Assembly (NCBI GenBank): GCA_004519485.1
Contig: CP038134.1
Coordinates: 930,001-994,000 of the forward strand
Direction: 5' to 3'
Source of the DNA: Nannochloropsis oceanica
Lineage: Eukaryota > Sar > Eustigmatophyceae > Eustigmatales > Monodopsidaceae
DNA: 64,000 nt
Both the position numbers and the translations under genes were made by a program. Shown piece by piece: positions 1 through 53,384 of this stretch. The notes beneath the pieces were generated by a model. It made no database searches. It saw only the letters and a list, made by a program, of their open reading frames with translations, and was not told the DNA's origin. How positions within the stretch are numbered: position 1 is the stretch's first letter; every line of letters starts with the position of its first letter.

Positions 1-660
1 ATACTCGTCCTCGAGGACACAGACAGACACGGGCCGCGACTGGTCCTTCCGACCCTGCAACACTACGGCCAAGAGGCGGTGATAAACCTCTTGTACCAGG
101 TCCGGTATCAGCCCTTTCACATTCGTCATCACCGCGTGCTCAAGCCAGGAGAGAGGGAAGGGAGTAAGTCGGAGCAAATTGGGGCCGCAGAGCTGAATGG
201 TAGTCCATGCCGTGAGGATGGAGGGGAAGAGGGAGGGAGGCAGGACGGACGACGCGGGCTTCCCAGCAGGGCGGGGCGTCATTGCGTCAGAGCCGAGAAT
301 GGTAAGGTCGTCGAGCATCTCCAACCGACCCTCGGAAGAGACACGGGTATGGTATGTACTGGCCCCTTCGCGTTTGACTGCCCCTCCATCCCACCCTCCC
401 CCTCCACCTATGCTGCCTCCTCCGCTGTTCCTGTGTCCGTGGCCTTTGGGCAAACCAGTCCGCATCCTGATTTTCAGGGTGGTGGAAGAGCGGCTGCGCT
501 CCTCTTCCTCGTCCTCGTCCTCCATCCCTCCCTCCGCATCACCCAGAGTGCTGGTGGGCGATGGCTCGGGATATAACTGGTGATACTGCTGCTGTTGGTG
601 CTGGAAATGCTGCTCCCCTTGTTCATGTTCAGAAGGTGCGAAGCGAAATCCTCCTTGTTG

Positions 661-6853: not shown

Positions 6854-9800
6854 CTAAGGCTGCGCCCCTGCATGTGTCCCCGCATGAACCCCTGCGTAAT
6901 AACCCCCCTCCCCCTCCTCTTGTCCTCCCCCACCTAAATGACCGTACAAAGCAAAGGCCACCTGACTTCCAAATCCCGCAGCAAACCGTAATGCGTACCT
7001 CGCATTGAACTTCCCTCCTTTGCCCAAATTAATCTTCCCTAGATATGGGTCCGTGTGCTTCTCATCTAAATTGGCAACCGGTGGTATAATGCCCGACCGC
7101 AGGATCTGCACAGCTGCCACGTCTTCGAACGACACTCCCATCGGATGACCAGTGTACCCCTTCGTATTCAAGACAATCAACTTCTCCATCCCCGCATCCC
7201 CAAAACATGTTCGCAAGGCAAATATCTCATTCGCCGCGCACGATGAGGCATCTGAAGCATGCGTGCTCGTTTCATGCGACAAATACACCCCCTCCTCCGC
7301 GATCTGCTGCCGTGTAATCCCAAATTTCTTCTCCAAACTACCCAAGAACCTTGCTAACTCCCCTGCGATATGGTGCTGATCCAGGGCCGCACCGTGATAA
7401 GCGCTGTTGCTGTATTGAGTATCAATCAAGCGAATCCGCAACGCCAGTCCAAACGCCTCGATGTGTTCCTTGGACATGACCACACTTGCCCCCAAATTCC
7501 CACCACTGCTCCCGGTACTGGTACTGCTGGTACTGTTAGTGCTGGTGCTACTGGTGCTTCTCCCCGTTATGGACAATGCCAGCAACCCCGTCTTCTCCGC
7601 ATACCTCCGTGCCACCGCTGCCTCCGTCTCCAGCACCATCCCAATTGCCCCCGCGCCCAGCACCAACCCTTTCCTCCTCTTATCGAACGGCAAAGCGGCA
7701 TCCTCCACATTTTCCGAAATCGATGCCGCCCCTAAAGCCCGAAATCCAGACCCAAGCCAAGGAATCAACACGTCCCCCGACGCATTATCAGAGGCAATGA
7801 CTACCAACCGCTCGCACCGCCCCTGCTGGATCATGTCCTGCCCTATGGCAATGGCCTGCGTCGTCCCTGCACATGCCGCATTCGTCTGCATATTTGGCCC
7901 CCTTGCCCCTACAATCTGCGCCAATTGGGCATTGCCTAACACCAAAATCCTAAACAAAAATTTCCTGTCGAATTCATACTCCGCATCAGGGTCCTCCAAG
8001 CGAGCTTTAAGAGACATCTCCAGCTGTTCGTATGCCGCGCGATCCTCAGGGCCGACATGCTCCCAATCACCCCCACAGGTCGCCACCAACTGATTCTTTA
8101 CACTCGTTAGCAACGCCTTGCTCTGTGTCAGGCTTTTCTCCTTCGAATGCAGAAAACGCATCACCTCACTCACTGCCGCTTCCAGGGCCGGGAACGACGT
8201 TGCATATACTACCCCTGTACTGTCCCTCATGTGCTCCGGCAACTGCCACGACGACAAATCCTTCCCCTCTCCCTTAACGATCCCTGCGTCTTTTAACGCT
8301 TCCAACCCTGCAGCAATTGCCACTTGGACAACAGTGTCCATTGTGGCTACCATCGCCTTACTCACACCGTAGGTAGTTAAATCGAATCTCCCCAGCTGTG
8401 CTCCCAGCTTTATCACCTTCTTTTCCGAGTCCACGGCCATCTTGGTAGTCGTCCCGTCTAGATTTTTCTTCAACTGGACCACATTTTTCTCGATCAAATT
8501 CATCTTTGTCACCTCACTCAGATTTGTGATAAAATTCGTTCCATTCACAAGATCCTCGAGGTTAGTGCCAGAAAATACGTCTCGGTCTTTCCCCGGTAGC
8601 CCTGCTGCTACCCCGGTGATGACTAGGGGGGCACCTCCATGGTGACGGATAGGAGAAGTAGCAGCAGCAGTGATAGAGGCCTTCAGCATGGCTTTTAAAG
8701 AGTCTTCGTGGGTGAGCTCGAGGAGAGTGGGCGATTTGAGAGAGAGGGAGTGGGGCATACTGGAGGAGTGGCCTTGCGTGGAGGGAGGGCGGACGACCAG
8801 GGGATAGGACGGGGAGGAGATGGGGGAGGATTTCTGATGTTGTTCAGAGGCGTGGGGAAAATTGAAAACACTGATGCCGCCACTGGTGAGGTGGGTGGTG
8901 CTTATCATTTCTTCCTTAGGGGAGGAGGAGGGTGTGGACGTAAGGGAGGGGGAGGAGTTGTTCGACGAGGTACACGATGGAATAATTTCCTCGCGATGTT
9001 TCCCTTCATCTTCCTCCTTCAGCTCCAGCTCTCGGACAAATGGAGAGAGGACCTGCTGACCGAGCCTGTCTTTGAGGGTGGTGAGCACCTTTTCCACCAT
9101 AATTACCTTACTCGAGCCATGCACCGGGTAAAACAACCCCTTAATCCTCGGCGCCGTCGGCAGCTTCCGTAAATACACCCGGGTGAAATCAGGCCGGACC
9201 TCCTCCAGATAAAACGTCCCGGGGAATAGAGAGGACACTGAATACTGTGGGACAAATCCACCTCTGTTCACATTCTTCTCCCGAATTCGAATCGCTTCCG
9301 AGAGCTCCTCTGGCGTGACTGTCTCCCGTTCCAACAAGCGATCCATCAAATTAATCGTCGATGCCATCTTGCCCAATGTGAACCTCCCACTGTTCACCGA
9401 GCTGGAAGGCTGCCTTCCAGTTATCTGAAACATCGTGGCCAGGGCCCCGCTTCCGAACGAATACACCAACATCCGCTTCCCCACCAGCTCCTGAGCCTTA
9501 AGTGCAATCAAACACACCAAATTCATATACACACTCGCCGTGTACGTATTTCCCACCTGCATACTGACAAGACAACTGGGCCCCACCCGCTTCGAAAAGC
9601 GATCGTGGCTTAATCCCCTTAACAGGCTTTCCAAGTCCCGGTCGTCATAAGTCTCCTCTAGAGGGGTCGCAGCCCACGGGTCCAAGCTCCCCCATCCCTC
9701 CCCCACGGTCTTCTTAAGCTTCCCCCGACGGGTGTCCATATAAAAGAGCCGACCGAAAGCCTTCTGCACCAACTTATTGTACGGGTGGTGAAAGCAGAAA

Positions 9801-10933
9801 TAGTCAATCTCATCCGCGCAAAACGGTTTCCCGAACGCCTCCTCCTGCTTGCCAGCGAATCGCAGGTAACAATCATCCAACGCCCGCAAGTAACACTCCT
9901 TGCTCATCTTCCCATCCACTTCCGGGTACTCACTAGCAAATTTGGGCTTGAAAAAGTCCCAGGTATTGCTTGCATGCGTCGCCCTCAGCTTGGAATCAAT
10001 CACCAATGGCGCATCCGGTCCCACTAGCAACGCCACCGCTCCACACCCTCCCGTCGGCTTGGCAGGTCCATCTGCGTACATTGCAATATCGGCACACACC
10101 ACAATCGCATACCGCCCATCCCATCCACTGCTTTCAACCCATGCCAGGGCATTCAACAGCGCTGCAGTCCCTCCATAACAGGCGTTGACGACCGTCGTTC
10201 CTTCTATATCAGTATTCCCCGACGCCTCAAACAAGGACATGAGCACAGTCTTGGTCGACTTCGCCCTGTCCACCAGCGTTTCCGTTCCCACCTCCAGCCT
10301 CCCCACTTTCTCCCGTGGAATGTCGTACTTACTTAACAAATTCTCTACCACCGTCAACGCAATCGAATTGATATCCTCTCGGTCCCCTACAAACGCCATT
10401 CCTGCCTGCCCCAACCCTGAGGTAAACTTTCCCTGGCTCACCCCATGGGCCCTCTCCAACAACGTCTGTCGCACGTATGTCGAGGGAAAATAGATTTCCG
10501 TTGCTAGAATCCCCACATTATCGGGCCGGCTCCCTCCACCGTACAAGCTCGAATTGTGCGAGCCCGGCTGATAATGTGACGGGTCCTCCTTGGTGCTGGC
10601 CAACGTTGGGCGCGCCTGCTCTGGCTGCTGCTGCTGGTGATGAGGATACTGTGTCCCTTCTGCCGTATGGCTCGGTCGATCCCCGCACAGACCATGGACA
10701 AGGTGGCGGCTTACGGCAACGATAACGAAGAGAAGAGTCACTATCCCTCCGATTAACAAGGGCCGTGCCCACTCCGCAGCCGCAGGTGTCGCCATCCCCG
10801 CTCCCTCAAGCAGCGCGCGAGCCAGCGTCTCCATTGCATCCTCCAATCCCATGGCCGCTTCTGCCACAAGCTGGCTGGCACTACTGGTCGAGGTGGAGGC
10901 GCAGGACGAGGCAGCAAAGGTGGTGGATCTCAT
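6854..10933 (-). CDS. Membrane-anchored HMG-CoA synthase / beta-ketoacyl synthase fusion
   Basis: One exon, 1359 aa, start ATG at 10933. Residues about 58-79 form one hydrophobic helix. Residues about 138-640 are a complete HMG-CoA synthase (condenses acetyl-CoA with acetoacetyl-CoA). All three catalytic residues are present: Glu218 (EVGTETLVDRAKS), Cys252 (VNACYGGTAALLNA) and His382 (FHHPYNKLVQK). A Ser-rich linker (about 650-760) follows. Residues about 768-1330 are a thiolase-fold ketoacyl synthase (PLVITGVAAGLPG) with the nucleophile Cys1021 (TNAACAGTTQAIAIG) and His1220 (LSHETSTHAS) and His1263 (NTKGYTGHPMG), which replace the usual HGTGT and NIGH motifs. Both active sites therefore look intact. 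Free HMGS enzymes are about 450-520 aa. In bacteria, HMGS and a decarboxylating KS cooperate in polyketide beta-branching cassettes, but that KS has lost its Cys. The role here (mevalonate supply or a dedicated acyl branching step) is unknown. Confidence 0.92.
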   Translation of the reverse strand: MRSTTFAASSCASTSTSSASQLVAEAAMGLEDAMETLARALLEGAGMATPAAAEWARPLLIGGIVTLLFVIVAVSRHLVHGLCGDRPSHTAEGTQYPHHQQQQPEQARPTLASTKEDPSHYQPGSHNSSLYGGGSRPDNVGILATEIYFPSTYVRQTLLERAHGVSQGKFTSGLGQAGMAFVGDREDINSIALTVVENLLSKYDIPREKVGRLEVGTETLVDRAKSTKTVLMSLFEASGNTDIEGTTVVNACYGGTAALLNALAWVESSGWDGRYAIVVCADIAMYADGPAKPTGGCGAVALLVGPDAPLVIDSKLRATHASNTWDFFKPKFASEYPEVDGKMSKECYLRALDDCYLRFAGKQEEAFGKPFCADEIDYFCFHHPYNKLVQKAFGRLFYMDTRRGKLKKTVGEGWGSLDPWAATPLEETYDDRDLESLLRGLSHDRFSKRVGPSCLVSMQVGNTYTASVYMNLVCLIALKAQELVGKRMLVYSFGSGALATMFQITGRQPSSSVNSGRFTLGKMASTINLMDRLLERETVTPEELSEAIRIREKNVNRGGFVPQYSVSSLFPGTFYLEEVRPDFTRVYLRKLPTAPRIKGLFYPVHGSSKVIMVEKVLTTLKDRLGQQVLSPFVRELELKEEDEGKHREEIIPSCTSSNNSSPSLTSTPSSSPKEEMISTTHLTSGGISVFNFPHASEQHQKSSPISSPSYPLVVRPPSTQGHSSSMPHSLSLKSPTLLELTHEDSLKAMLKASITAAATSPIRHHGGAPLVITGVAAGLPGKDRDVFSGTNLEDLVNGTNFITNLSEVTKMNLIEKNVVQLKKNLDGTTTKMAVDSEKKVIKLGAQLGRFDLTTYGVSKAMVATMDTVVQVAIAAGLEALKDAGIVKGEGKDLSSWQLPEHMRDSTGVVYATSFPALEAAVSEVMRFLHSKEKSLTQSKALLTSVKNQLVATCGGDWEHVGPEDRAAYEQLEMSLKARLEDPDAEYEFDRKFLFRILVLGNAQLAQIVGARGPNMQTNAACAGTTQAIAIGQDMIQQGRCERLVVIASDNASGDVLIPWLGSGFRALGAASISENVEDAALPFDKRRKGLVLGAGAIGMVLETEAAVARRYAEKTGLLALSITGRSTSSTSTNSTSSTSTGSSGGNLGASVVMSKEHIEAFGLALRIRLIDTQYSNSAYHGAALDQHHIAGELARFLGSLEKKFGITRQQIAEEGVYLSHETSTHASDASSCAANEIFALRTCFGDAGMEKLIVLNTKGYTGHPMGVSFEDVAAVQILRSGIIPPVANLDEKHTDPYLGKINLGKGGKFNARYALRFAAGFGSQVAFALYGHLGGGGQEEGEGGYYAGVHAGTHAGAQP

Positions 10934-12169
10934 TGTCAACTACAGGGTCGTCGTGCTGGCTTCGCCTGGCGCTCCTTGATGTCACGGCGACTTTCAATGA
11001 CGGTGTTTACTGTGGTGCACGTGCATGGAGGGATGGGAGGGATAAGGATGGGTAGGTCTTCTAAGGGGCACAGATTATGTGTGCGTATTGGCCTGTCGAA
11101 AGGAGCGCGTCGGACTGAGGGCAAGATGTCGGGCGCACGATCATCGTCCCGTGTTAGCCACGCTCGAAGCCGTTGCAATACACCCCACACATGTGACCAC
11201 AATGCTCCCTTTTTTAATTTCATGTCCGAATCACTTCCGCGCGTGCCCTGGTGACCGTCATCCTTACAGGGAAGAGACACAGGGAAGAGGCAAGCCAGCA
11301 TCCAAAAAGAAGGATCGAACGCACCTCAACTTATGGAAAGGGTGCTGCCTTTGTGGCCCACCTTTAAATTAAACAAAGGCGATGGTCTATGAGTAAGAAT
11401 AAAAGTGGTGCCATGTGGCTCAATCGTAGTAGTTGCAGCAGTCTGAGGACGCGATAAAGCGAGAATAACCACATCTCGCCGTTTGCAGGCTTTGGTTCCG
11501 CTTCTCCCTCTCCTCGGTTGCACATGGCGGAGAGGCTGCCAGCATACTTATGCTTCACACAATTTTGGGGACAGCATGCCCCTCCATAGCCACCAATCGA
11601 TCAAAGCAGACATTGACTATGTCATGCCAATCACCAATATGGCTCAAACTCGTCGTGATTGGGGCGAAGGACTCAATTGCACGTGTCCAAAGCCAGGCCC
11701 ATTGCTTATCTATCTATAACGGCTGTTGTTTGCCTGTCGCTAACGGCCGAAGAAAAAGCGAAAAAGCCATCGTTAGCCCCGGTCACAGGCTGATAATGCA
11801 TGGGATTTTCATGGGAGCGCATCGTAAAAGTCATGGTGTTACAGTAATGTGCATTCGATGTTTTATATTGGGAGCCGTGCAAGACTATGAAAAAAACACG
11901 AATGCGACGAAAAAGGGTGGGATCTCAAATTCATGGCGCGAAGCATCCATCATGATGCGGCATACAGATTGAATGATCATGCCCTTAACCCACTGGCTTT
12001 GCCCCACCGACCCGCAATGCACCGACATTGAAACCTCTTACCCTCTCCTCCTCCTCCCTTGACAGGGTCTCGCGCTCTTGGATTTTTCCCCCTCCTCGTC
12101 CAACAGCGCAGCAAGCGCTTCCTCTTCATCCCTACCCCATCAACTGACTGCCTGCCCGCCCGCAGGCGT
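10934..12169. promoter_or_regulatory. Divergent intergenic region, HMGS-KS and Nudix genes
   Basis: 1.24 kb between two outward ATGs. C/T-rich stretches ending in AG just before 12064 (cctcctcctcccttgacag) and before 12166 (cgcccgcag) look like splice acceptors, so the Nudix gene may have a spliced 5' leader. No conserved ORF recognised. Confidence 0.5.
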
Positions 12170-25271: not shown

Positions 25272-28200
25272 TTAGAAGATACAGTTGCTGCCCCATTCCA
25301 CGAACCGCACCACATCGTCCTCCCCTCCTTCCCCCTCTTCCCTCTCATTTTCTTCCATCTTCTTCTCCTCCTTATCCTCGACCTCCACGCCCCCTTCCCT
25401 TCCCCCACCTCCTCCCTGCACTCGGGTCAATCGTCGAAGCAATGCTCCCTCATCCTCTCCTTGTCCACCTTTTTGCCTCTCGAAATCCGTCGCTATAGCC
25501 TCACAAACACGCGTGTTTTTCTGATCATCATCATACAGCCTTCCTCCTTCCCCTTTTCCGGCTCCCATCGGCTTGAACCCCACTATATACGCGTCCAACA
25601 ACAGCAAATAAGTCAACAATGGCCGCGCCACAGCTAAGGCCAGCCGCCTTTCCTCTGCGTGCGCCTCATCCGTTTCCTCACCCTCCTCCCCTTCCTTTTT
25701 CAAGCCCACCCTCCCTCTTGTAGTATGCTGCAACATGTCGCCTTCCGAAAACGCCCGCCGCCGCTTTCGTCCTCTCTCCACTCCCCCCTCACATCCTCTT
25801 TCACTTCCTTTTTCATTTCCTTCTCGATTACTCACCTGTGATGAAGACGTCGATGATGAAGACAACGCTCCTCCTCCTCCTCCTCCTCCTCCTCCTCCTC
25901 CTCCTCCTCCTCCCCCTACTTCTGCTCCAGCTCCTTCCCTTCTTCTTCTTGGCCCCCCCATCACTGCCGCTGCAAACGACTGTGACCGCAGCCTTTGTCC
26001 CCTTCCTCCTCCTCCTCCTCCTCCTCCTCCTCCTCCTCCTCCTCCTCCTCCTCCTCCTCCCCATACTACTCCTCCTCCCAATACTCCCCGACTGGACGAC
26101 GCCCCTGACCCGGTACCATCACCTTTTGCCTTTTTGACCCCCGCCAGTAACATTAACATCTTTGTAAATACCGGTCGTGCGCTCTCCCACTCCCCCCTCG
26201 ACAGGAAAAACAGAGCAAGGACAGGCATGAATGTCGCCCCCTCCGTAAGCTCCAAAATGTCGGCTACCTGGCGGGAACGGCCTTCGACCCTCCGCCTCTT
26301 CCTTCTCGCAGTCATGCTTATCTGCTGCTGCTTCTGCTGCTGCTGTACCCCTCCCTCCTCTTTCTTTCCGCCCTCAGGAGCGGAGCCTGACTTAACCACA
26401 GTCGCTTCCGAGGGCGTGATCCCTCCTCCATTCTCTCCTTCCACCCTTTCCTCCTCTACTTCCTCTTCCTCCTCCTCGTGTGCTTCCTCCTTCTCTCTCA
26501 AAACTCTCTCCACCCTCCTAATCCACGCCCTCATCATTCCCTCCAACCGTGCCACGTCCCTCCCCTCCTTTTTGCCGAACCCCCCCTCCTTCAAGTGCAT
26601 ACCCAACGCCAACTGATATGGAATCAACTTGAGATTGCTCCCCAACGAGCCCCCTCCACAGTCATCCCTCACACTCTCCCCATATGCCAGCCGCAACAAC
26701 AATAAGCGTACATCGTGAGCAATTAATCCGAATCTACTTAAAAGCGTCTGACCATGCATCGACGATAACCTCGAAAAGTGCTTTTCGACCGCTTGGTTGA
26801 ACAATTCCCGGTTCGTCTGGGGACCTCGGATGGGCAATAGTCCGTTGGTGCTGACTCGAGAGTTCCGTAAGGCAGCTCCGTCCCATTCGCCTTTCGGTCG
26901 CTTCAATGCACGGTCCGCACGGACGGCCTCGGCATGACAGGAAAGGTGGATGAAGTTGTGGGCGGTTACGGTCGTGATCAAACGGCAGCTCCGACGCGCT
27001 GCGGACAAACCAGCGGAAGATACTGAGAAAGCAGAGGAGATGGAAGAGAAAGCAGAAGAGGAGGCAGAGGAGGCAGAAGATGCAGAGGCCGTGAAATGAC
27101 GTTGTCGACACCCCTGTCCCCGCCCCTCCGCCCCTCCTCCCTCCCTCCCTGCCCCTCCTCCTGTCCCACCCAGCTGGCCAAAAAAAGACCGCGCTCTCAA
27201 CAGCGATGAGTATGGCTCCGCCACCGTCGCTGCAGCTACATCTGCTGCTGTCGGGGCTGCTGCTTCCGTTAAAGCTGCTACCACCGGATTGTTTCCTCCA
27301 CTACCACCTCCTCCTCCTTCTTCTTCTCCTACTTCATTCCCACCCATAGACAAAGCATCTCCTTCCATGGCTGCTACGTCACAATTGGCAACGGCCTTGC
27401 TGTAAATATACAAAGCAAGGACCTCGGTGGGCTTCAGCCCCATTCCTTCCTGGCAGACTTCGCATGCTACCCCTGCCTCTTCTTCAAGTCCCTGCAAGTC
27501 TTTCAGCCATTTGGAAGATGAAGAGGAGAACGATGATGTAGCTACTGCTGCTGCTGCTGCTGCTCCTCGTGCTGCTGTTGAGGAATAGCAGGACAGGAAA
27601 GAGGAGGAGGAGGGTAATGCGGAGAGAGATAGAGAGCGAGGGCGACGAAGGCGAGACGTTTCATTGGATGACAGGGCACGAGGAGCGGTGGAAGGGGAGG
27701 GTGAGAAGGAGGATGCGGAGGATGAAGGAAACGAGGAGGGGCTGCCACTTGCACATGCACTGGCGGCACTACCTCCACTCGCATCAATCTCCATAGAAAC
27801 AATACTCTCCTCTTCCTTTCGCGGCTGTTGTTGCTGCGATAATGAAGCTGATGCTGCTGTTCCCGTTGCCGTTGCTGTTGTAACGGCTGGTGTAGGGACA
27901 GAAGGCGAAGGAGGGTGGGAAAAAGGAGGAGGAGCAACAGTCAAACCCATGGCAGAGAGGGCTCGCGTTCGATTTTGTTGGGCCAAGCGTCGCTTTTGTG
28001 ACTTGGTTGTCTGCCGCAGGCCCCTGATGGTCTCTCCCACCTCCATTAACACCGACGCTGCTGTCGCCATTGCCGCAGTTCCACTAGCAGTACCAATGGC
28101 ACCGTTCACAGTACCAGGAGGAGCAGCAGCAGCCGCTGCACCACCGCCACTAGCAGTAGCAGCAGCAGCGACAGCAGCGGCGTTCAAGGCATCCTCTAAT

Positions 28201-31200
28201 ATCTCCTCCGCCACGGACCCCGCATCGCCCGACCCGGTCAAACCCTCAATATCGTGTAGCATTCCCAAAGCCCCCTCTTTCATCATGAGCGCCCATGTCC
28301 CTCCATGCCCCCCCCTCCCTAGTCCCGCCAAGACCCTTAATGCGGGTAGCACCAACGGCCTACTTAATCCCACTTTCCAAGCCGCCTCCACCTTCTCCTT
28401 TCTCTTCAGAAACTCCCCGCGAGTTCCACTCTCTTTCACCGCTTTCCCAATCCCTTCCCCCACCGGCAATGCAGCCTGCAGCGCCGCAACAGTAGCAGCA
28501 GCCAACCCTCGCGTCAGTAGCTGGTCGCGAAGGAAGGTAGAGGCAGACACCGCGTCTCGCCTTCCTGCCGGTAAGCCGGCCAACGCCTCCAGCATAATGG
28601 TCAACCGCAAGGGAGGGAAGGTCGCTTCTGCTGCTGCTGTTACAATACTTCCTTCCTCCTTCTCTCCCTCCCAACGAGACCAGTTAATCTCCTCGACGAT
28701 TTTCTCGGCAAGCGCGGCACAGGCCTCCTGTCTGCCATAGGTGAGGAAGGGGAGAAGTCGTCCGACGGCTTTTGTCAACGAAGGACTCGCCTGTAGCACC
28801 TCTACCAATGTGGGATCCGACAGTGCATCCAAAAAACCGCGCACGGTGTCGCCCTTCCTTCCTTCCCTCTGTCCTTTGGCCCCTCCCTCCTCCACCATTG
28901 CTGTCGACGAGGGAATCGCCTGCCCTTCCTCGTCGTCTCCATCCCCCCCTTCCTCCTTTCCTCCTTCCCCCTCCCCACTACCCAGCTCCTCCACCAACTG
29001 CAACAACACCGCCGTCCCTCCACACCCTTTTTCCTTCTTCTCCCCTCCCCCTCCTCTTTCTTGGTGGGACGAACGTAACGCGGCCAGAAGGTAAGAAAGT
29101 AAGGTAGCCGGTCCCTCTAGATTGAACAACAGCCTGGCTCGATTTTCACTACTTTTACAACATAGCTTCAATACCTTCGTCGCCACGCACGGAATCTCCC
29201 ACTCATTCGAGGATGGTGTCAAAGGTAAGGGGGAAGGAGAAAGGGAAGGAGGGCGGGCCAGATCCAACAACGCCGCCAACCCTCCTCGAGTGGCGCCTAA
29301 TACACGGGTAAGTTCCCTTGTGGCAGCTGCTGCGGCCTCCTTTTCTTCGCCCGCCGCTTCCTCCTCCTCCAGTGATTCCACCACCTCCTCCGTTGGCTCG
29401 CCATCCACACCCATAAGTCGATACGTCACCACCATTGGCGGGAAATTCGCATCATTTGGCACATTCCCTCCCTCTCTCCCTCCCTCCTCCCCTCCCGGAA
29501 ATCCGTAAATTTCCGGGGATTTTTCCATCACCCACTCTCTCCACATGCCCCCAAAAAGCAGCCGCAAAGGCAGATCCAGACACACGATCTTTCCACACAC
29601 CAGACACTCCAGCAGCTCCATCGAGTCCACCATTCCCAGCTCCCGCGCTAGCCACCGTCTCAAATCCCGTACAGTCGGCTGGTCCATCCCTCCCTCCCTC
29701 CCTTCCCCGTTCTCCACATCCAATGTGATCTCCCATACCCCTATCGGATTCCGAGAGAGGTTGCCTCGGAAAAATTCGTCCTGCGAAGGGGCTCGTCGGA
29801 GTTGGATTCTGAAAGATGGGAGGGGGATTGGGGGGGAGAGGGTGTCTTGCATTGCATGCATCAGGAAGAGGAGGTTATCGGACGTGTGGTATAAGGTGCG
29901 AGGAGAAAAAAGGCGGGAAGGAGGACGGGTTGCAGGTGTGCTTTTCTTATTGCCTTCTACTTCCTCGGCCAGAATTTTGGTCAAAGCCGCAACGTACAGG
30001 GCCTCTTCATTGCCCTTCCTCCCTCCCTCCCGCCCTCTTTCGATGCCACCTCCTGGGGCGATAAGACCCATGAGGTCCAGAAGGGATGCATCTACGGCTG
30101 GAGGAGCAACCGTGAAGGAAGATAGTTGCAGCACCAGGCGGAGAAGGGGGGTGAGGTATTGCTGTAGCCGCTGCTGCCTCAGATGGGGATGGAAAGCGAG
30201 GAGAGCTTTCAGGGCCTGAATGAGCTGGAATAGGACGAGGCCATGGTTGGTGTCGGTGCTACTGCAGATGCTCAGACTGCTCCTCCTAGTGAGGAGGAGG
30301 AGCCGGTCGGCCTCTTTTTTGGCGCGCTGGCAGAGGGAGATTAAACCTCCACAGGCTGTCAGGTAGGAGGCGAGGATGGGATGGCAGACGAGGTGCCGAA
30401 GCAGGGCGAAAAGCTGAAGAAAGGAGGGCTCGGAGAGTGGTTGCTGCTGCTCGTCGTTGTTGAGGACGGATATAAGCAGGTCAAGCAGACGGGTTTGAAG
30501 GGAGAAAGGGGGGGGGAGGAAGGTAGGTAGGGAAGAAGTTGCCGATGGTGGCGTATCCACATCCATTGCTTCCCCCTTTGCGCTCTCTTTTTCCTCCTCC
30601 CCCTCCTCCTCCCCCTCTTCGTCCTTGTCGTCATCCTTCTCCCCCTCCTTCATATCCTCATCCATTTCTTCCGTCTTCTGCCCTTGCTGCTGCTGCTGCT
30701 GCTGTTGTTGTTGTTGTTGTTGTTCTTGTTGTTGCCGCTGCTCCTGCTGCTGCTGCTGGTGCTGGTGCTGGGCGTGGAAGCGATCGACTTTTTCTAAGAG
30801 GCCTGCCATGAGCCAGCCGGCTTGTTTGCGCGTTTCGAGCGAGTGTGGGGTCAGAAGGAGGGATAGCCACCAACTACCATGCGGTGACGAACTGAAAAAT
30901 GTGGCATTGGTGTCGATGTTGCCGCTGCTGCTGCTGCTGCTGCTACTCGTCGTCGTAGCCTTCCATTTGGCGAGCACACGCCGAGCCAACACCATCTCAC
31001 GCTCCTGCTCCCCTCGCTCTTCCACTTCCTTCTCCCCTCCATCCTTCCCTCCCTTCCCTTCCTTCCCTTCAATCATCTCCACCAACAATTGAAAGGCGAA
31101 TTTCGTCACCACTCCCTCCATTTCCTCTTCCTTCCTTCTCCCTCCCAAAAACAAAGCACTAAGCAAACGGAGGCAGGGCAAAGCCACTCCCTCTGCCACC

Positions 31201-34096
31201 ATTCGATGATCAAAGGCAAGAGGCCCCACCCTCCGTAGTAATTTGAGGGGCAACATGAAACTACGCACGTTCATCGCCAGGAAAAAGGAGGGAGGGATGG
31301 AGGGCACAGTCCGTCCGTCCGTATGGGAGAAGTGGCAGAGCGCATGAATAAGATCGAGGTACGGAGTCAGGATCTCGGGGTTGCGGAGGGTAAGGGGGAT
31401 CAGTCGGGGGAGAGCGTGGTGGAAAAAGAGGTTGTGAAAGTGGGATTGAACGAGGGCACCACCGACGGAGCAGAGCAGTTTCAGAAGCTCAATCGCATGA
31501 AGACGGATGGCGGCGGTTTGGTAGGTGGTGATGGGCTCGAAGACGGCCATCAACAATGAGAGGAGGCGAGAGGTTTCCTCCTGTTTTTGTTGTGGTTGAA
31601 TGAAGTCTTGACGATGAAGGCCGAGGAGTCGAAGGAGGCCTTTCTCGCTTTGGTTTTCGACCATGCGTGCTATCAAGCACAAAAGACAAAATATTGTCGA
31701 AATTCTACAGTCGAGACACGCACTCTCTTCCTCCGCCCCGTGCCCCCTCACTCCCTCGTCCTCATCTTCCTCCTCATCTTCCTCCCAAGCTCCTTCTTCC
31801 ATCCTAGTCTGATGCTCTTCCAATTCATTTGCGAGTCTTTTCAGCTGGCGCGTGTACGACAGGCGTTTCTCATACGAGGCTCTGACTGTGCCGGTGTAGT
31901 AAGAAATGACCGCTGATGGTGCTACGGATCCTGCAGAAGTAGTAGCAGCTGTAGCAACAGCGATGGAGGGGGGAGTAGGAATGACAGGGAATGAAGCATA
32001 GAGCAAATTTAGATGGGGCGGCTGCCCGGTAAAGGACGAGGAAGGGAGGGGGGAGGGAAGGGAGGTAGAGGAGGCTGGATGGCTGTCAGGTGCAGACTGA
32101 GGAGGAATCGCAAATGTCACCTCTCGACCGCTGCTTGTGTTGCGGCTACTACGACTGCTGCAACTCTTCGAGCCCCAACCCTCGACTGCTGCTGCTGCTG
32201 CTGCTGCTGCTGCCACCTCGGCTGGCACAGCCCGCTCCAGCCCTCTTCCACCCATGGTCGCTTGAGCTGAGTCCACCAACAGTCCCCTGATGCGCTCCGA
32301 CTTACCATCTCTTCCTCCTTTATCTGTTCCTCCTACGATCTCTCCGCCTCGCCTGTTCACATCCATGAGCCTCTGTATCTCCCCCACATGAACATGCTGC
32401 ACACGCTGTTCCTCCATCAACAATCCCGCCGTCTTTTCATACGCCTCTCTCACCTCCATCACCTCTTCCTCCTTCACTCCCTCGCCGCCCCTCCCTCTCC
32501 CTCCCAAAACCAGGCCTGCCGGGACCGCCAGCAGCCGGTATCGAAACGATCCATACCCGCAATACCCACACGCGACACACAAAAAAGAATCCACCTGCGA
32601 GTAATTCACATGCCTGCAGGACCTACATCCCGCAATCTCCCCACAGGACCGACAAAACCGATGCGCATCTAACTCTCGCCCACAGTTGGGGCAGGGCACC
32701 GCCCCTGCTATTTCTCCTGCTCCTGCGGTTGTGATAAAGGAGGGGGGAGAGGGAGGGTAGAAATCGTTGTACTCGATCCAGAGGCTCCCTACGAGGGCCG
32801 GAAGGGGTAGGTCGACTTGAAGAAAGCTTTGCCCTTTCCTCAGATGAAGGGTCGTGAGTTCTTCCCACTTATGTGGATCGGTGCTGGAGAGGGCGGCAAT
32901 GGAGAGAAGGGGACGCGGGAGGAAGAGAAGGCGAATTGTCTTGACGTGCCGAGCATGGGCGTCGGAGATGGTGAGTTGAACACGGCAGATACGGTAAGGG
33001 GCACGAAGGGAGAGGAAGAGGGAATTTTCGGTGGCGCGCTGGAGGCATTTGAGACCATCGAGGGGCGAGAGACGGTATTTGATGGCAGACGAGGAGGGCG
33101 GAGACCCGGACGAGGATGGTGGCGATGACGAGGACGATGAAGAAAAAGAGGAGCGGAGTCGTGTACAGGGAAGACAAGGGGTGGGCTCGAGGTAACGCGG
33201 GAGGGAGGCAAGGATGGGGTGGTTGCTTTCAAGCGCAGCGTAGAGAGGAGAGGAGGGGTGATTGATCAGGCCGTGAAGCTGTGAGTCGAGCAGTCGCACA
33301 AGGAGGTTGAAGAATACGAAAGAGGTTGAGAATGAGGAAGGCAAAAGCTGTCCCTCCTTTTCTTCCGTCTCCTCTGGCAACTGCTTTTGCTGCCTAAGCT
33401 TCGTCTTCCCCTCTTCCTCCTCCCCACCCAGAGCTTTTTCCTGCCTGCTCTCCCACCGTTTCTCGTCCTTCCCTTCGTTTTCAATCAAGCCGTACAGCAC
33501 CTGCAACATACCCACTGCGTCAGCCCCATGTGCCAAAAATGCGGGAAGAAATCTTGTGAACGCCTTGATAGCCTTTCGTCTATCCTCCACCACCAGCCCC
33601 TCCCAAAATCGATACACAAGTACCGCGGCGATGCCGCGAGCTCGGTCATTTGAGGATTTCAGAGAGCGACAGGCAAGGTCAATGAGGACCCACGAATGTA
33701 TCCTCCCTTGCTCTACGAGTAGAGCAGTGGTAAGAGGGGAATGGGTGAGAACGTGGGCTCTTGCATTTTTGGATGGCACCAAGGCGCCTTCTTCCACGAG
33801 GAATTCATCGTTGTCGCGGTCAGAGTCTTCCGTCGAGCCCGTAATTCCAGCTCTTGCTGCTGGTCCTCCTCCTCTGTCTCCCCTCATCCGCACCTCCTCG
33901 TCCTCATCCTCCTCGTCAGAGGAATAACGGTGCTCTTCTTCCTCATCTTCTTCCTCATCTTCTTCCTCCTCCTCACCCACCACTAGCATCTCCTCCTCCA
34001 TCATCTGGTCTTCCTCCTCATCCTCATCCTCATCATCCTCCTCCTCCTCCTCCTCCTCCTCCTCCTCCTCCTCCTCCTCCTCCTCCTCCTCCTCCT

Positions 34097-34128
<32 letters not shown>

Positions 34129-36060
34129 TCCTCCGCATCATCCTCCTCTTCTGCCTCCTCATCCTCCTCCTCAATCTCCTGCTGCATCGCCTCATCGTCT
34201 TCCTCCCCTCCGTCATCCAAGCCCTCCTCACTATCAGACCCATAAGAGTGTCTCGCTCTCCTCCCCTTATTCCCATCGGTCCTCCTCCAATTTTTCTTTC
34301 TACCACAACTGTTGCTCGATACTCGCGCGGCAGCAGCTGCAACAGCAGCAACAGGAGCAGCTCGAACACGGGTCACACTAAATGATAAACCAACCCGTCG
34401 TTGCTCCTCCTCTCCTTCATCCTCCTCCTCCTCCTTCACTTCATCAAACTCAACCTCCTCCTCCCTTATCTCGTTCTTTTCCTCCTCCCCCTTCTTCTTC
34501 TTCTTCTTCCTGTTCTTCTTCTTCTGCTGCTGCTTTATCGTCTTTTTTTCCTCCCTTCTGTCGTCCTTTCCGTCATCGTCATGATCCCCGCCTCTATTTT
34601 CAACTCCCTGAGACTCCTCCTTCTCTCCCTCCTCCTTCTCCTCAGTTGCAATCTCCAGTAGACTTAATGCCAGCAGCTGTGTTTCGTCCCCTCCCTCTAA
34701 CGCACACACCACATCAAAAAGCACACATAAAGGAGGCACGTCCTCCCTTCCTCCATCCCTATCTCTTTCCTCCTTCTCTTGTATCTCTTCCTCCTTCATA
34801 TCCTCGTCGTCCTCTTGCTCCTCAATCGATGCACCTCCAGGTGTAATTGCGGCTGCTGGTAGCAACACAGATGAGGAAGGAGAGAAGCAGGAGAAAGGGA
34901 AGGAGGGAAGAAGGGCAAAGGCTTGCCAATTCGCAGGACGCGCTAGAGCAGTCACGAGAAGCCGGGTGAGGCAACTGTGGATGGACGCCTGTCTTGTGTA
35001 AGGTAGGTCTGGCAGACACACAAATACACGATTGCTTCTCCTACGCTGCTGCTGTTGCTGTTGCTGTGGCTGCTGGTGGGCAAGAAGGGAAAAAGGAAGT
35101 CCGGTGGCAAAGGAGAGGGCATGGAGTTCTTGAGTGAAAAAGTAGAAGTCGAGTGTGCGGCGATACGATGGGTAGTGGTCTCCATACAAGGCGCGAAGGA
35201 GCATTTTGCTGCTGTTGATGAGAGCAGCAGTGGTAGCAGCAGCTGGAGTAAAGGTGGAAGTGCTGCTGCTGGTGCTGCTACTCTTTCTTGGAGTGGCGGG
35301 TGAGGAGAAGGAGGAGGACGACGACGAGGGAGGGGAGATATGAGCGTGCAACAGATTGCACAACAGATGCGGCCAGGATGGATCAAAATCCGAGGACGAG
35401 GGCGCGATGGATAAGGGGGTGGGCCGTTGTGTGCGTTGCACCGCCGCCAACAGGTCCAGAAGAGAAGCTAGGAGGAGCGGAGATGAGTCTCTCACGCAAA
35501 GCAGGGCGAGAAATTGCTCGTTCTGTCGCTTTTGCTGCCCCATCGTCGTTTTGAGGCCTGGCTGCGGCCAAAGGGTGCTCCAGTCAATAGCTCCTGCTCC
35601 TGCACCAACTGCTCCTCCTCCTCCTCCTCCTCCTCCTCCTCCTCCATCTGCCATCTCTTTAACTCCGTCCATCTGCCCCTCCCGGCTTGCCAGCCAAGTA
35701 GAGAGTAAGCCACGGATCTGTTGCTCGATCTTTTGGGCACCCTCAGGACCGACAGTGGCAGCAATCAGAGATCGAGCAGAATGAGGGAAGAGGGGGAGGG
35801 AGGGCGTGGGGGAGAGGAGGCAAGCCAGGGCACGCGAAAGGAGAAGGGCGGTCTTGCTGGCTGCAGAGGGCCGAGAGAGGTGCTTGCGATTGCTAAAGCT
35901 AGTGTCAATGTTACTCCTGCTTGAACTGCTGCTGCCATCTCCTGTCAGTTTTTGGAGCGCAAGGCTGAGGTAGAGGGAAAGAGTGATCGCCAGGTGCCGC
36001 GCTCGAGCGCTGCTGCTCTTTCTGTCGCTGCTCCCGCTCTTGCTGCAATCGCTCTTGATC

Positions 36061-36101
<41 letters not shown>

Positions 36102-37769
36102 CTCGCCTCTATTGTTGCTGCTGCTGTTCTTGCTTCTATTGTTGCTGCTGCTGCTGTTCACCCCTCTCAAAAGCTGCAAAAGCAAATTTATATAATTCAT
36201 GCATGCTTCTTCTGTAGAGACCATATCCTTCCCCTTCTTCACTCCGTCCGTCACTCCCTCTCTGTCCAGAGCTCGGATTACCACGCGTGGAAATCGAAGC
36301 AACAATCGATCGAATAGCACCAACAAAACGGCCTCTATCCCCTTCACCCTCCCCAAGCCCCCCCTAAATATATGCGTCAGACCATCATCATCGCCATCAC
36401 CATCCTTCCCTTTCTCCTCCTCTCCTCCGTCCTTCCCCTCTTTCTCTTTCCTCTGCTGCTTCTCTTGCGCGGTTTCTTTCCTCTCCGCAAAAGAAGGCGG
36501 GGTCGTCCCTCTCTTCCTCTCTCTTAGGCCCTCCCTCCTAACCCCCCTCTTGCCCTTCCCCTTCTCCTCCTTCTTCTTTTCCTCCATCTCCTGGATTATG
36601 TCGTCCTCATAGGCCATGGGGGGCAGCAACATCTCTCTGTTCCTCTCTTCCTCCCCATTTGCACCAATGAAGACCATACGATGGTTCGAAAAATGTTCCT
36701 CCAACACTTCCTCCCCTTCTTTCTCCCCCTCTTTCTCCCGCCCGCCCTTCATGTGAATCGCTCTATAACACGCTTCACACAAATCAACATCCGGACAAAC
36801 CCGACAGTGGTATCTGCCCGAAGGCAAGGGAAACGACTGGCATCTATCACAAACGTACACTAACAGCGAGGCACCTGGGGTGGAAGGGGAGGAGGAAGAG
36901 GGAAAGGGGGTCTCGGAGACAGAATTGAGGCCCTCTTTCTCAGAGTTGGCTTCGCATGACAGAGGTGTGCCCTCCCTGCCCTCCCTTCCTTCCCTCCCTT
37001 CCTTTCCTTTATTGGGTTGGGCGGCTGAAGCAAGAGTAGGGAAGAATGGAGCAGCTGCTGTTGATATTTGCGGCCCCTTCGTGTTCTGGGCAGCCTTGTC
37101 CGTTTTTTTCTTCTGCTTCCTTCGGGCTTTATCAACACGGTGCTCCAGCCAGGAGGAAAGACATAGACCCACCGCTGCCGACACTCCTGACGAGGAATTA
37201 TCCAACAGACGAACCAATGCATCCACCCCTGCAACGATCCGTGCATCCTCCATCCCCCCCCCCGCTGTTCTGGGAAAGACAGTCGCAGCTGTACAAGCAG
37301 CACCAAGTTCTCGTATGCCAAACTCAACGACTTCCCGTGCCACCGTTTGTTGCTGCTGCTGCTGCCTCTCAATGTCCGAATCGCTGCTGAAGCTACTGCT
37401 GCTTCCGCTGCTATTGCTGCTGTTGCGGCCCTTGCTACTGTTCCCATTTTCGTTTCTACGGTGTAAGGTCAACACCCGTCTCACCAATGCTTGCACCCAC
37501 AGCTCTTCCATCCCTCCTCCCTTCCTCCCTTCCTCGAAGCCCAGGTAGAGGTGGGAGGGGCGGCGAGTTAAGATATGTTGGAGTAATTTGACTATGGCGC
37601 TGAGCTCTTGAATGGCCAGAGAGGGGGATGAGAGGAGGAGGCGGACACGGGTAATGTGAATTGTGTCTTTAACTTTACTGTAGGCCTCGTCCTCCTCCTT
37701 CTTCGGTGGTTGCACCCTCTCCTTCTCTCTTTTCTCCTTGTCCCCCTCCATTTTCCTGGTGCCGATGGA

Positions 37770-37801
<32 letters not shown>

Positions 37802-38303
37802 CCGTGATGAGAGGCTCCTGGCACAACTGCCGCAGCAGGAGCTTGGCCGCCGATCGTACTAGGTGGTGCGTCTGCCGTGTATTCGCCGTGCCCCATGTGG
37901 CCCCCAACACAGCCTTCACCGCTGCAAGGCCCTTCTGCTCGTGCTGCTGCTGCTCCAGCTGTTTCTGTTGCACGGCCACAGCACTGCTGCTGCTGCTGCT
38001 ACTCTTGGTCGTGGTAGCGGTAGCAAGGGCGAGCACACGGAACGTACTGAGGACGGCGCATTCCCAAGGAGCGGTAGCAGGCTCAGAGAGCATTCGCCAC
38101 TCCTCCCCCGAGGTCTGACACCCCCTCGAGGTGGAAAATAGAGATTTTCGAGAGATGAAGCTTCCCTCCCAGCCTACTTCCTCCTCGTCCTCATCCTGAT
38201 GGTATCGATGCTCGTCCTTCTCATAATATCGGCCGTAAAGCTCCACCGCATCCAGCACTGGGCCCCTCCCTCCCTCCCTCGTTACACCCCCGACATCCTG
38301 TTG

Positions 38304-38337
<34 letters not shown>

Positions 38338-41300
38338 AATCCGATCAAGGACAAGGTCACCATTGTCGCCTCCCGGGCCCACATCATTTCCTCCTCCGTC
38401 AACGCAAAGTCGTACCACCTGCCCCCTCCTCGCCTCCCTCCCTTCCGCCCCCCCTCACACAATCGTCGCTGGCCCATCACCTGAATCACTCGCGGGACCG
38501 TTTCGGGCCCCATTAAACCTACCAAAACCCGCACATTCGTAACCGCATACTCCTTTGCATCCACTCCCACCCCAAGCGACAAACATTGCTCTCTCCCTCC
38601 CTCCCTCCCTTCTCCTCCTCCTCCTCCTGCTCCTCCCAAAGACAAGGGCGGGAGGGGGGGAGCCATGAGCTGTGCACTTCTTATTTCGCCTCGCTTCGCT
38701 GCACCGACAGTGATCCAATCCCCTTTCCCGCCAACGTCATCCTCCTCCTCCTCCTCTTCCTCCTCCCCTTCCTCCTCCAACTCCTCCTCATCTGTTTTCC
38801 TTCTCACAGGAGGGGAGAAAAGGATGGAGGGCCTGCCCTTCCCTTCTCCTAGACCACCGACACGCCTGGCACAAGAAGCACGCAAGAGCTGAATGTAGAA
38901 CTGATCGAATTTTTTAATGCTCTCCCCAATGAAATCGAGAGAAAAATCTTCATCCATCCTCTCGACTTGCTCGCAGAGGGCATAGTGGGTGCTTTGAACG
39001 GGATGGGTGGAAGGGAGAGGAGGAGGGAGGGGCGGGGAGAGAAAGGTGCGTAGGGCCTTAGTTGCTCGGATGGTAGCTTCTTCGCCAAATGAAGGGGGGG
39101 AGGGCAAGCACCGGCGACGATGCGACTGCTGACAGCTACCAGAAGCAGAGCTAGAATGGAACATCATGTTTCTCTTCGCCGCTCTCCCTCTACTGCTGCT
39201 GCACCTCCTACTATAGCTGCTGCTGCTGCTGCTGGGGGCAAAAAAAGACAAGCTCCCACTCTCCTGCAGCACCATCACCACCGACTTTCCCCCAGCCCCT
39301 GCGGCCGTACAGAAACCCTCCACCCCTCCATCCCCTGTCCAATTACTAGTCTTGCCGTCCTTGCTACTATTCCTCAGATCTATCAAGTCCTGCACCACCC
39401 ATCGATCTCCCTTCTTCCTTCCTCCCTCCTCCTGCTCCTCCTCCCCCTCCTTCTTCTTCTTTCCCATTTCCAGGCGTGACAGCACCACCACCCGTTCAGA
39501 CCGTAACACGGGATTACGAGCGACGAAAAGAACGGAGGGAGGGGCGTCATGGGAAGGACCGTCCAGGAAGCGAAGGAAAGGGCCTTGGCATGCATAGGCG
39601 GAGGGGGGCAAAGACGAGGAGAAGGTGGAGGAGGACGAGGGACCGAAGGAGGAAACGACCGTAGATGAAGGAGGCACCGACAACGGCGAGAATTTCGTCG
39701 ATCTCCCCTCCTCCCTCCCTTCGTGGCCATCCCTCTCTCCCTCCTTCGCTTTCCCGAGCGCTGCGGGAGACAGCAATTGAAAGCCTGTTCCAATGCTTGA
39801 CAGATTCTTATTCACAGGGAACGCAATCACCTTCTCCTTCGACCCCAGCAGCAACAGTCCCAGTCGCGGGGATATATGGAGGGATAGAGGCCCCCGTTCC
39901 CCGTGGAGGAGCTGATCGAGGGAGAGGGAGGGAGGGAGGGGGAGGGCCGTGGCGAGGGATGCATCGAATCGACCGAAAAAGGTGCCACCGGTGGGAGTGC
40001 GTAGAGGTCTCAAGAGCTGTAGGCCCTTGGTGAGGACAAGGACAGCTATCCCTAGGGAAGAGCGCTCTTTCCCTCCTTGCCTCCGACCTTCCTCCTCCTC
40101 CTCCCTTCTGTCCGAGGTAGGGAGGAGGATGGCATCAAAAATCAAACGGTCAGAGGGGGAGGTACGGTAGCAGTGGGTTAGTGCGGCCAAGGCCTGTCCC
40201 TTTTTCACCCTATACACCTTCACCGCATTCTCCATCACCAAACACACATGCAGCCTTCCTTCCCTCCCTTCCTTCAGCATCGGCAGCCAAAATGCTGTCT
40301 TGCATGCGCCACTTGCATCGTGGTTGTCAGCGACAGTCGGGTCCACAACGAGCCTTCTCGACAACCGTCCACCGTCGTCGAAACTCAGGTGCTGACACCC
40401 GTACATACTCCACGCAACCACCTCCCTTCCTCCCTCCCCGGGGTGGAACGCCACTCCCAACGGCTGCCAAGGCAAGTTCGTCCTTGACAACACGCACAAA
40501 CCCCCCCTTCCCCCCTCCCTCCCACCCTCCTTCCTGGTTGTGAGAAGGCCGAGGATGGAGGCAAGGACGGCTTCTCGTCCTTCGACATAGACAATTTTGT
40601 CCCCTATGGCGTTAGAAGAGAGGGTGGACCGACGGGCAGTGCCTGCGGCCAGCTCTAGGCGCAGCTGACGAGTAGCGCTGGTCTCGTTCAAGACGAGCTC
40701 GGCGTTGAGGGTTGAAGGGGGGAGGTGGCCCGGGATGGGGGCGTAGAGGGAGGGGAAGGAGTGGAGGGAGGACGAAGGGGAAGGGGAGGAGGAGGCACGG
40801 TGGAGTTGGACGGGATTGGTGGCAAGGGGGCCCTGGCTGCTGTTGCTGCTTATTCTGCCACTGCTGCTGCTACTGCTGCGAGTGACTTTGTCCCATAGCG
40901 CTCCGAGAGCTGCAGCCAGAGCTCGGCTTCCTTCCTCCTCCTTTTTTTCTTCTGTGAAGCGCTCAACCAAGCCAGACAGGCGCTGAGCGAGATTGGGCAG
41001 GTGGAGAGTGGGAGGGTGGGAGAAAGACGTCGAAGACGAGAGTGATGGGGGGCATGAAGGGGTGAGGGCACGTATGGCTGCCACTAAAGCAGGGAGGCTC
41101 TCACTGATCCCACGCCAAGGCTTAGCAGGAAACAGTATCGGACCCCCTCCACCTCCTCCACCTCCTCCTCCTCCCGCTGCTGCAGCTGCTGTTGCTACTG
41201 TTTTTGGAACTCCTCTTTCCTTCGGTCTCTGAGCCGTACAGTGCTGTGCCTGCTGCTGCTGCTGCTGCTCCTTTTGATTGACGTTGGGGGGCGGGACATA

Positions 41301-53352: not shown

Positions 53353-53384
<32 letters not shown>

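Follow-up and report, generated by a model that had tools for sequence, protein, structure and literature searches.

A fused HMG-CoA synthase and ketosynthase in Nannochloropsis oceanica whose ketosynthase groups by sequence with a prokaryotic lipid synthase family

A single frame carries both condensing enzymes

The window (the whole stretch of DNA analysed here, 64,000 nucleotides of Nannochloropsis oceanica contig CP038134.1) contains a minus-strand open frame of 1361 codons (6854..10939), in which an ATG at 10933 opens a protein of 1359 residues that runs to a stop at 6854 (Table 1). When the bases of this piece were shuffled 300 times, stop-free runs reached at most 276 codons, both strands considered. 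An earlier note, made from the sequence alone, had described this frame as intronless, with an N-terminal hydrophobic stretch and with the active sites of both an HMG-CoA synthase (HMGS) and a ketosynthase (KS) intact. We confirm that the hydrophobic helix, a complete HMGS and a KS lie in the single 1359-codon frame, and that the six residues which, from knowledge of the families, we take to be catalytic (E218, C252, H382, C1021, H1220, H1263) are present at these positions, in agreement with the alignments. The top hydrophobic 19-residue windows begin at residues 54-65 (mean Kyte-Doolittle value at most 2.33) and the best window beyond residue 100 reaches 1.61, a profile that is consistent with one N-terminal anchor. 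Ser, Pro and Thr make up 35% of linker residues 596-765, and a Pfam scan called no AT, ACP, KR or DH domain in the fusion protein.

Table 1. Features of the fusion gene, in positions of the window
Feature	Position	Strand	Basis
HMGS-KS fusion gene	6854..10933	-	1359 codons + stop, intron unnecessary
N-terminal hydrophobic helix, ~residues 56-80, putative membrane anchor	10694..10768	-	Kyte-Doolittle scan
HMG-CoA synthase domain, eukaryotic type, residues 136-590	9164..10528	-	PF01154 + PF08540, TIGR01833, 2f82
HMGS catalytic Glu218	10280..10282	-	alignment to 2f82
HMGS catalytic Cys252	10178..10180	-	alignment to 2f82
HMGS catalytic His382	9788..9790	-	alignment to 2f82
Ser/Pro/Thr-rich linker, residues 591-765	8639..9163	-	composition; no Pfam family there
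Ketosynthase domain, residues 766-1335, KS2 family of Type-R/Asgard lipid synthases	6929..8638	-	
KS nucleophile Cys1021	7871..7873	-	column C in 81/81 KS2, 8/8 KS1
Insert, residues 1111-1161, partly Ser/Thr low complexity	7451..7603	-	gap in aligned KS2 relatives
KS His1220 (HETST motif)	7274..7276	-	H in 81/81 KS2
Rewritten loop, residues 1225-1229	7247..7261	-	HASDA vs PARGG in 81/81 KS2
KS His1263 (TGHPMG motif)	7145..7147	-	H in 81/81 KS2

The profile search suggested in the earlier note bears out both halves. HMG_CoA_synt_N (2e-79, residues 136-309) and HMG_CoA_synt_C (1.8e-76, residues 310-590) exceed their Pfam cut-offs, as do ketoacyl-synt (2.9e-14) and ACP_syn_III (2.4e-6); Ketoacyl-synt_C falls slightly short (20.0 vs 20.8 bits). 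The eukaryotic equivalog model TIGR01833 matches at 555 bits (cut-off 286) over model positions 2-457 of 457, and the HMGS half scores 449 bits against the HMG-CoA synthase 2f82, 48.7 against CurD and 32.4 against PksG; judged by these scores, it is of the eukaryotic CoA type and not of the CurD/PksG type. No HMGS match other than the fusion gene was found in the 29.3 Mb genome.

An HMGS probably outside a mevalonate pathway

In a six-frame search of the genome that ignored introns, HMG-CoA reductase gave 0 PF00368 matches, and none of the five GHMP kinase matches, whose best families are IspE, homoserine kinase, galactokinase (two matches) and fucokinase, is a mevalonate kinase, a phosphomevalonate kinase or the decarboxylase. 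DXR and IspE were found. The HMG-CoA users sought were the reductase and the lyase, and the lyase alone was found, in pieces. Thiolases are also present, so that acetoacetyl-CoA could have a source other than the KS half. That N. oceanica is without a mevalonate pathway is also stated in the available text of PMC4052811 and in a further paper, which possibly rests on it.

The fusion itself is already in print. As far as the available text goes, PMC4052811 reports it in N. oceanica and Ectocarpus, suggests a non-mevalonate function, and describes the N. oceanica HMGS as transcribed and under purifying selection. The HMGS proteins of N. oceanica IMET1 (g249) and of Ectocarpus siliculosus likewise combine PF01154, PF08540 and PF00109 in that account, and by this published domain composition g249 is probably the present gene or its ortholog. 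The same text leaves the kind of KS unstated, and it is the kind of KS that is new here. A literature search joining HMGS, beta-ketoacyl synthase, alga and mevalonate returned PMC4052811 only; one for a stramenopile HMG-CoA synthase-ketoacyl synthase fusion returned nothing, as did one for a Heimdallarchaeota or Asgard fatty acid synthase with ketosynthase or polyketide. The available portions of the red-body and fatty-acid-derivative papers PMC11211512 and PMC8511707 do not mention the gene. Identical fusions characterised as ordinary mevalonate enzymes, which the earlier note had named as evidence against its idea, did not turn up: the fusion is in print, and no enzyme characterisation was found in the portions available.

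The KS half groups with the second KS of lipid synthases

The first relative of the KS half to be found, from Nonomuraea in a plasmid collection (36.8% identity by tblastn), is the second KS (KS2) of a Type-R-like lipid synthase. Wider relatives came from scanning contigs with a two-row alignment; the algal sequence alone matched a pattern at 47 stretches, none of them a relative, and the viral contigs scanned yielded none. Of 307 relatives, 80 were kept, the comparison set comprising archaea and bacteria, where the nearest relatives found lie. The algal KS matches the Type-R-like second KS along its length, at 39-47% identity over shared alignment columns, whereas the KS domains of the genome's own polyketide synthases (PKSs) match it over short stretches at 26-27%. 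In the tree, 36 KS2 rows with the alga separate from 8 KS1 rows at 100/100 support. On these sequence grounds the algal KS belongs to the KS2 family, which is formed by the second KS of lipid synthases with the architecture KS-AT-KS-ACP-KR-DH ('Type R', with larger Asgard versions). It is not a KS of PKS modules, nor of the kind without Cys found in beta-branching cassettes, and the PKS-type clade that the earlier note had named as support for its idea is not borne out. To our knowledge no reaction has been assigned to the KS2 family, archaea and bacteria included, and the 60 solved structures that the KS2 profile lists include no recognisable KS2-family enzyme.

The Cys-His-His triad is complete in the alga and in all 81 KS2 relatives; one of the two patterns used to fetch the relatives spans residues 1012-1019, adjoining the catalytic Cys, so that conservation near this residue is partly imposed, while neither pattern covered the PARGG loop or the two histidines of the triad. 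The histidine motifs had been called atypical, and this stands for one part only: HETxT and TGHPMG are largely normal for KS2, and it is the loop after HETST that departs, as it also does in two of the four stand-alone Asgard KS. With the PARGG loop altered beside the first His, the activity of the algal KS may be gone or different. In the predicted structure the algal KS has the thiolase-type fold and triad of FabF/KASII, at ~25% identity, and the insert region has low pLDDT (model residues 357-389). Unlike FabF/KASII, KS2 carries S-H-E and N-T-K-G signatures, and the algal model contains a stretch with two long helices, predicted at model residues 153-188 and 198-215, that we take for a putative insert relative to FabF/KASII.

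KS2 matches share a frame with further synthase domains in 79/81 prokaryote loci. Four stand-alone versions, lone KS like the algal half, came from the Asgard search (L037, L041, L155, L156); among Asgard genomes 42 of 227 match KS2, several weakly. Identity to the alga is highest for the stand-alone L156 (47.0%) and Heimdall L035 (46.0%), followed by two Myxococcales KS2 (45.5%), and Asn1001 of the alga recurs in three of the four stand-alones, the residue being His in at least 97% of the 79 fused KS2. The alga pairs with L155 at 92/84, both on long branches; once L155 is removed no single placement holds, grouping with L156 giving a p-AU of 0.512 and grouping with L156, L037 and L041 one of 0.14. 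A clade of the alga and all four stand-alones has support 39/82. The data weakly reject a position of the alga inside the group of 11 bacterial KS2 (p-AU 0.031) but do not reject one as sister to all 11 (0.467). These comparisons leave room for an Asgard as well as a bacterial source of the algal KS. No HMGS was found beside or fused to a stand-alone or Asgard KS2 in the loci examined, by BLAST at 1e-8 with a eukaryotic HMGS query that a distant archaeal HMGS would escape; in none of the 20 Asgard genomes covered did a KS2 match share a frame with an HMGS-like match, so that the partnership was not seen there.

A proposed double condensing enzyme and its rivals

The reading that we prefer, at a probability of roughly 40%, is that of a membrane-anchored single-chain double condensing enzyme, in which the KS would supply an acetoacetyl-thioester and the HMGS would convert it to HMG-CoA for non-isoprenoid use. 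The KS half would load acetyl (or a short acyl; the substrate is a guess) onto Cys1021, and condensation with a malonyl thioester would then yield the acetoacetyl (beta-ketoacyl) thioester, to which the tethered HMGS half would join acetyl-CoA. Malonyl decarboxylation would render the otherwise uphill acetoacetyl step irreversible. Since neither HMG-CoA reductase nor mevalonate kinase was found, the HMG product would meet a non-isoprenoid fate, and with the lyase as the one user found, candidates are leucine-linked C5/C6 acyl metabolism, ketone bodies or an HMG-derived lipid as yet unknown. A point against this reading is that making HMG-CoA and cleaving it again with the lyase in the same compartment would be futile in part. 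The thiolases, the altered PARGG loop, a KS family of no assigned reaction known to us and the partnership not being seen in the Asgard genomes searched also count against it. In-situ acetoacetyl formation was among the possibilities raised in the earlier note, whose interpretation is, overall, partly supported; we favour it as a possibility. As to origin, it is possible, if doubtful, that a stramenopile ancestor fused a stand-alone Asgard-type KS to its own HMGS, that the resulting membrane enzyme uses malonyl and acetyl units to build HMG (or an HMG-like thioester with a beta-branch), and that it was kept in Nannochloropsis after the loss of mevalonate synthesis.

Bacterial beta-branching (HCS) cassettes have HMGS together with KS as their signature, and the KS there lacks its catalytic Cys. 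The alga might possess a eukaryotic counterpart, its HMGS acetylating a beta-ketoacyl-ACP from its own KS or from the genome's PKSs to give beta-branched chains, and PKSs are indeed present, with a giant frame of 16178 codons that holds 11 KS domains, alongside three or more other KS-AT frames. However, the KS retains Cys1021, as the earlier note had pointed out, and the HMGS half is not of the cassettes' CurD/PksG type, so that the fusion resembles them in neither respect and the bacterial cassette itself is unsupported. No enoyl-CoA hydratase (ECH) family was called in eight of the 11 segments centred on a KS domain in the giant PKS or in fragments of three other PKSs, and none of the genome's 20 ECH_1 matches lies inside a PKS frame by coordinates; stand-alone ECH enzymes do exist. 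We regard such a eukaryotic enzyme as improbable. The halves might instead act independently, the KS starting or extending a lipid or polyketide chain on an ACP and the HMGS otherwise used or serving mainly as a scaffold, with fusion amounting to co-localisation. The usual residence of KS2 in multidomain synthases, its stand-alone versions and the genome's PKSs would suit this, but the HMGS half keeps its catalytic residues under reported purifying selection, and the reported composite in Ectocarpus indicates that the join has been kept (PMC4052811, available text); we think independence rather unlikely.

A front end of the mevalonate pathway, vestigial or still feeding isoprenoids, would agree with the role of HMGS elsewhere and perhaps with the fusion reported in Ectocarpus, as far as that text is available. 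Yet the lack of reductase and mevalonate-type kinase matches in the six-frame search, together with DXR, IspE and the published absence of the pathway, largely refutes it for this genome; we reject it as very improbable, and the suggestion that the protein might feed mevalonate is unsupported. The long Ser/Pro/Thr-rich linker could raise the suspicion of an artefact, whether two adjacent genes read as a single frame or an assembly join. This we find scarcely credible, given the continuous frame, the similar GC3 of HMGS (0.65), linker (0.65) and KS (0.61), and the like domain composition described for N. oceanica and Ectocarpus, with transcription in N. oceanica, in the available text of PMC4052811, which argue against a join.

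Why a model oil alga should keep an HMGS when no HMG-CoA reductase is found is a puzzle that PMC4052811 left unexplained, as far as its text is available. Placing the KS in the KS2 family of archaeal and bacterial lipid synthases makes malonyl-driven HMG formation a concrete hypothesis, one that a single protein and a handful of mutants could put to the test. The algal KS also offers a lone-domain model for a widespread 'chain length factor' domain with an intact triad. If true, the double condensing enzyme would mean that eukaryotic metabolism has a further, non-isoprenoid route for HMG, and it would give metabolic engineers a useful irreversible acetoacetyl-forming step; an ancestral fusion, if true, would mean eukaryotic HMG use outside isoprenoids.

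Comparison with known systems

The 'Type R' secondary lipid synthase of Acidobacteria, Roseiflexus and Elusimicrobium is given as KS-MAT-CLF-ACP(3-6)-KR in the available text of PMC3098273, and the algal KS family corresponds to its 'CLF' position, the second KS, an assignment that rests on the shared architecture and on family members from Roseiflexus and Acidobacteria rather than on that paper's own sequences. Compared with Type R, the alga is without AT, ACP, KR and DH, has HMGS instead, and has a changed PARGG loop. The label CLF implies a dead KS; the KS2 triad is nonetheless complete. The Asgard synthase L036 (ER-KS-AT-KS-ACP-KR-DH-PPT) carries the same KS2 family as the alga, without HMGS. 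NphT7 is a KASIII-type acetoacetyl-CoA synthase that condenses malonyl and acetyl units to the acetoacetyl-CoA feeding HMGS; it differs from the algal protein in its KASIII type and in not being fused to HMGS, and resembles it in the reaction that we propose for the KS half.

The fusion gene and its precedent

All six active-site residues that the earlier note had claimed for the fusion of HMG-CoA synthase (HMGS) and ketosynthase (KS) were found at the numbers it gave, and the frame of 1359 codons compares with a longest open run of 276 codons in 300 trials of shuffled DNA of the same make-up. The fusion is real; it is not new, because the domain composite already stands in passages of PMC4052811. 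Those passages place PF00109 also inside HMGS of N. oceanica and Ectocarpus, describe the N. oceanica IMET1 gene as actively transcribed and regulated under sterol depletion, find the nonsynonymous rate across algal HMGS to be low and, with the remaining mevalonate steps absent from IMET1, suggest a role outside the mevalonate pathway. What is new is the family assignment of the algal KS together with a loop change after its first catalytic His, where HASDA (residues 1225-1229) stands in place of PARGG.

Features of the fusion gene, its window and the compared genomes
Feature	Location	Strand	Remarks
HMGS-KS fusion gene	window 6854-10933	minus	open frame, 1359 codons + stop, ATG at 10933
Hydrophobic helix	fusion protein, residues ~56-80		N-terminal to HMGS
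HMG-CoA synthase N and C domains	fusion protein, residues 136-590
Ser/Pro/Thr-rich linker	fusion protein, HMGS end to residue ~765
Ketosynthase	fusion protein, linker end to residue ~1335
Open frame, 6227 codons	window 25272-43955	minus	UBR4 E3 ubiquitin ligase and ZZ finger matches
Open frame, 1304 codons	window 52232-56146	minus	no Pfam match at 0.001
Dsc3 C-terminal domain + ubiquitin domain	window 56993-58195	plus
HMG-CoA lyase pieces	C4:636599-637600		algal genome
Type I FAS-like protein of Asgard archaeon	L036:4619-15418		3599 residues, KS2-bearing

Family and possible source of the ketosynthase

No close KS paralogue was found in the alga's own genome, where the next match reaches 36% over 117 query residues and PKS modules follow at 26-27% identity. 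This genome also holds a 16178-codon PKS frame with 11 KS domains (G000:C2:536775-581594); in the eight segments scanned it starts with AMP-binding and ACP domains, KR and ACP precede most KS, and AT directly follows KS in only three (L006, L004, L002), so that several modules may be without their own AT there.

The best match in a plasmid collection (Nonomuraea, 36.8% identity, 97% coverage) is the second KS, or KS2, of a 2555-residue KS-AT-KS-KR-DH protein that is followed by a multidomain acyl-CoA carboxylase. Pfam at 1e-5 calls no ACP between its KS2 and KR; we infer one because the same segment matches the Heimdall locus L036, where PP-binding is called. Scanning species genomes with a two-row alignment gave 456 stretches and 307 relatives. 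Among the 80 of these retained, the top seven are Heimdall-type Asgard archaea, followed by Thermoplasmata, Chloroflexi, Acidobacteria, Actinobacteria and Myxococcota. With Nonomuraea included, KS2 shares a frame with other synthase domains at 79 of 81 loci, the other two (L037 and L041, both Asgard) being stand-alone KS of ~550 residues. KS2 matches occur in 42 of 227 Asgard genomes searched, four strong ones (G001, G002, G038, G042) as stand-alone frames of 499-552 residues; one further KS2 match (L148, G033:C276) contains one TAA.

The Heimdall protein at L036 reads ER(NMO)-KS-AT-KS-ACP-KR-DH-PPT and is adjoined by carboxyltransferase and biotin carboxylase genes (acyl-CoA carboxylase subunits). 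Other Asgard genomes carry long KS2-bearing frames too, and a literature search for Asgard or Heimdallarchaeota with FAS found no report. The architecture of such synthases matches that of the 'Type R' secondary lipid synthase (KS-MAT-CLF-ACP-KR, no product known) described in PMC3098273. At the position there labelled chain length factor, the full Cys-His-His triad is intact in 81/81 KS2 sequences, which are therefore probably working KS.

KS2 and the alga split from the first KS with support 100/100. In both trees the alga falls among archaeal lines, outside a bacterial KS2 clade supported at 100/99 or better (whole bacterial set, 100/100 in both). When two more divergent stand-alones are added it pairs with one of them, L155 (92/84), both on long branches. 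AU tests gave p = 0.031 for the alga inside bacteria, 0.467 for the alga as their sister and 0.221 for a grouping with the fused Heimdall loci L035, L036 and L038. Taken together, positions and tests therefore only suggest an archaeal-type source, the place inside KS2 being unsettled.

Are the two genes also linked in prokaryotes? Of 20 genomes taken from the 42 KS2-matching Asgard ones, 13 carry an HMGS-like match, always in its own frame (350-556 residues) and either on another contig or >800 kb from the KS; seven gave no match at the sensitivity used. Neighbours of stand-alone KS are unrelated at L041, L157 and L158 (Pfam) and at L037 (translations, by eye). With the two genes thus unlinked in the Asgard genomes and loci compared, the fusion looks like a eukaryote-side event. 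Two of the HMGS-like frames (G088:C1:2997227-2997964 and G089:C249:9169-10263; 542 and 556 residues, 31-32% identity to eukaryote-type HMGS) exceed in length those of the other eleven genomes, which have 350-372 residues, and are also closer to the eukaryote-type enzyme.

Metabolic context and proposed reaction

The genome check for HMG-CoA reductase and mevalonate kinase that the earlier note had proposed found neither. The fusion gene is the sole PF08540 match in the 29.26 Mb genome (32 contigs), and PF00368 (HMG-CoA reductase) has none, the same search being positive in 5/14 control genomes. The five PF00288 matches belong to other families: IspE and homoserine kinase are the best NCBIfam models over cut-off, galactokinase, fucokinase and a galactokinase fragment the best under it. 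The model for mevalonate kinase, whose cut-off is 163 bits, scores no higher than 60.0 and 36.5. DXR is present and thiolase occurs in several places. These searches were intron-blind, so that a multi-exon gene could have been missed; absence of the pathway from N. oceanica is also stated in passages of PMC4052811 and PMC10989085, whose independence is not certain.

Being complete and of the eukaryotic CoA-using type, the HMGS half would most probably form HMG-CoA. The KS half would most probably form a beta-ketoacyl thioester, acetoacetyl being the form that HMGS requires, and the tether and hydrophobic N-terminus would hold both halves at one membrane. Of the two HMG-CoA consumers searched for, reductase and lyase, lyase alone was found.

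In the bacterial beta-branching cassette, by comparison, the KS is without its Cys, and the HMGS is of a different subfamily from the algal half. The algal PKS pieces scanned yielded no ECH family, and the genome's 20 ECH_1 matches all lie outside PKS frames. The cassette and the algal fusion resemble each other in their parts list only.
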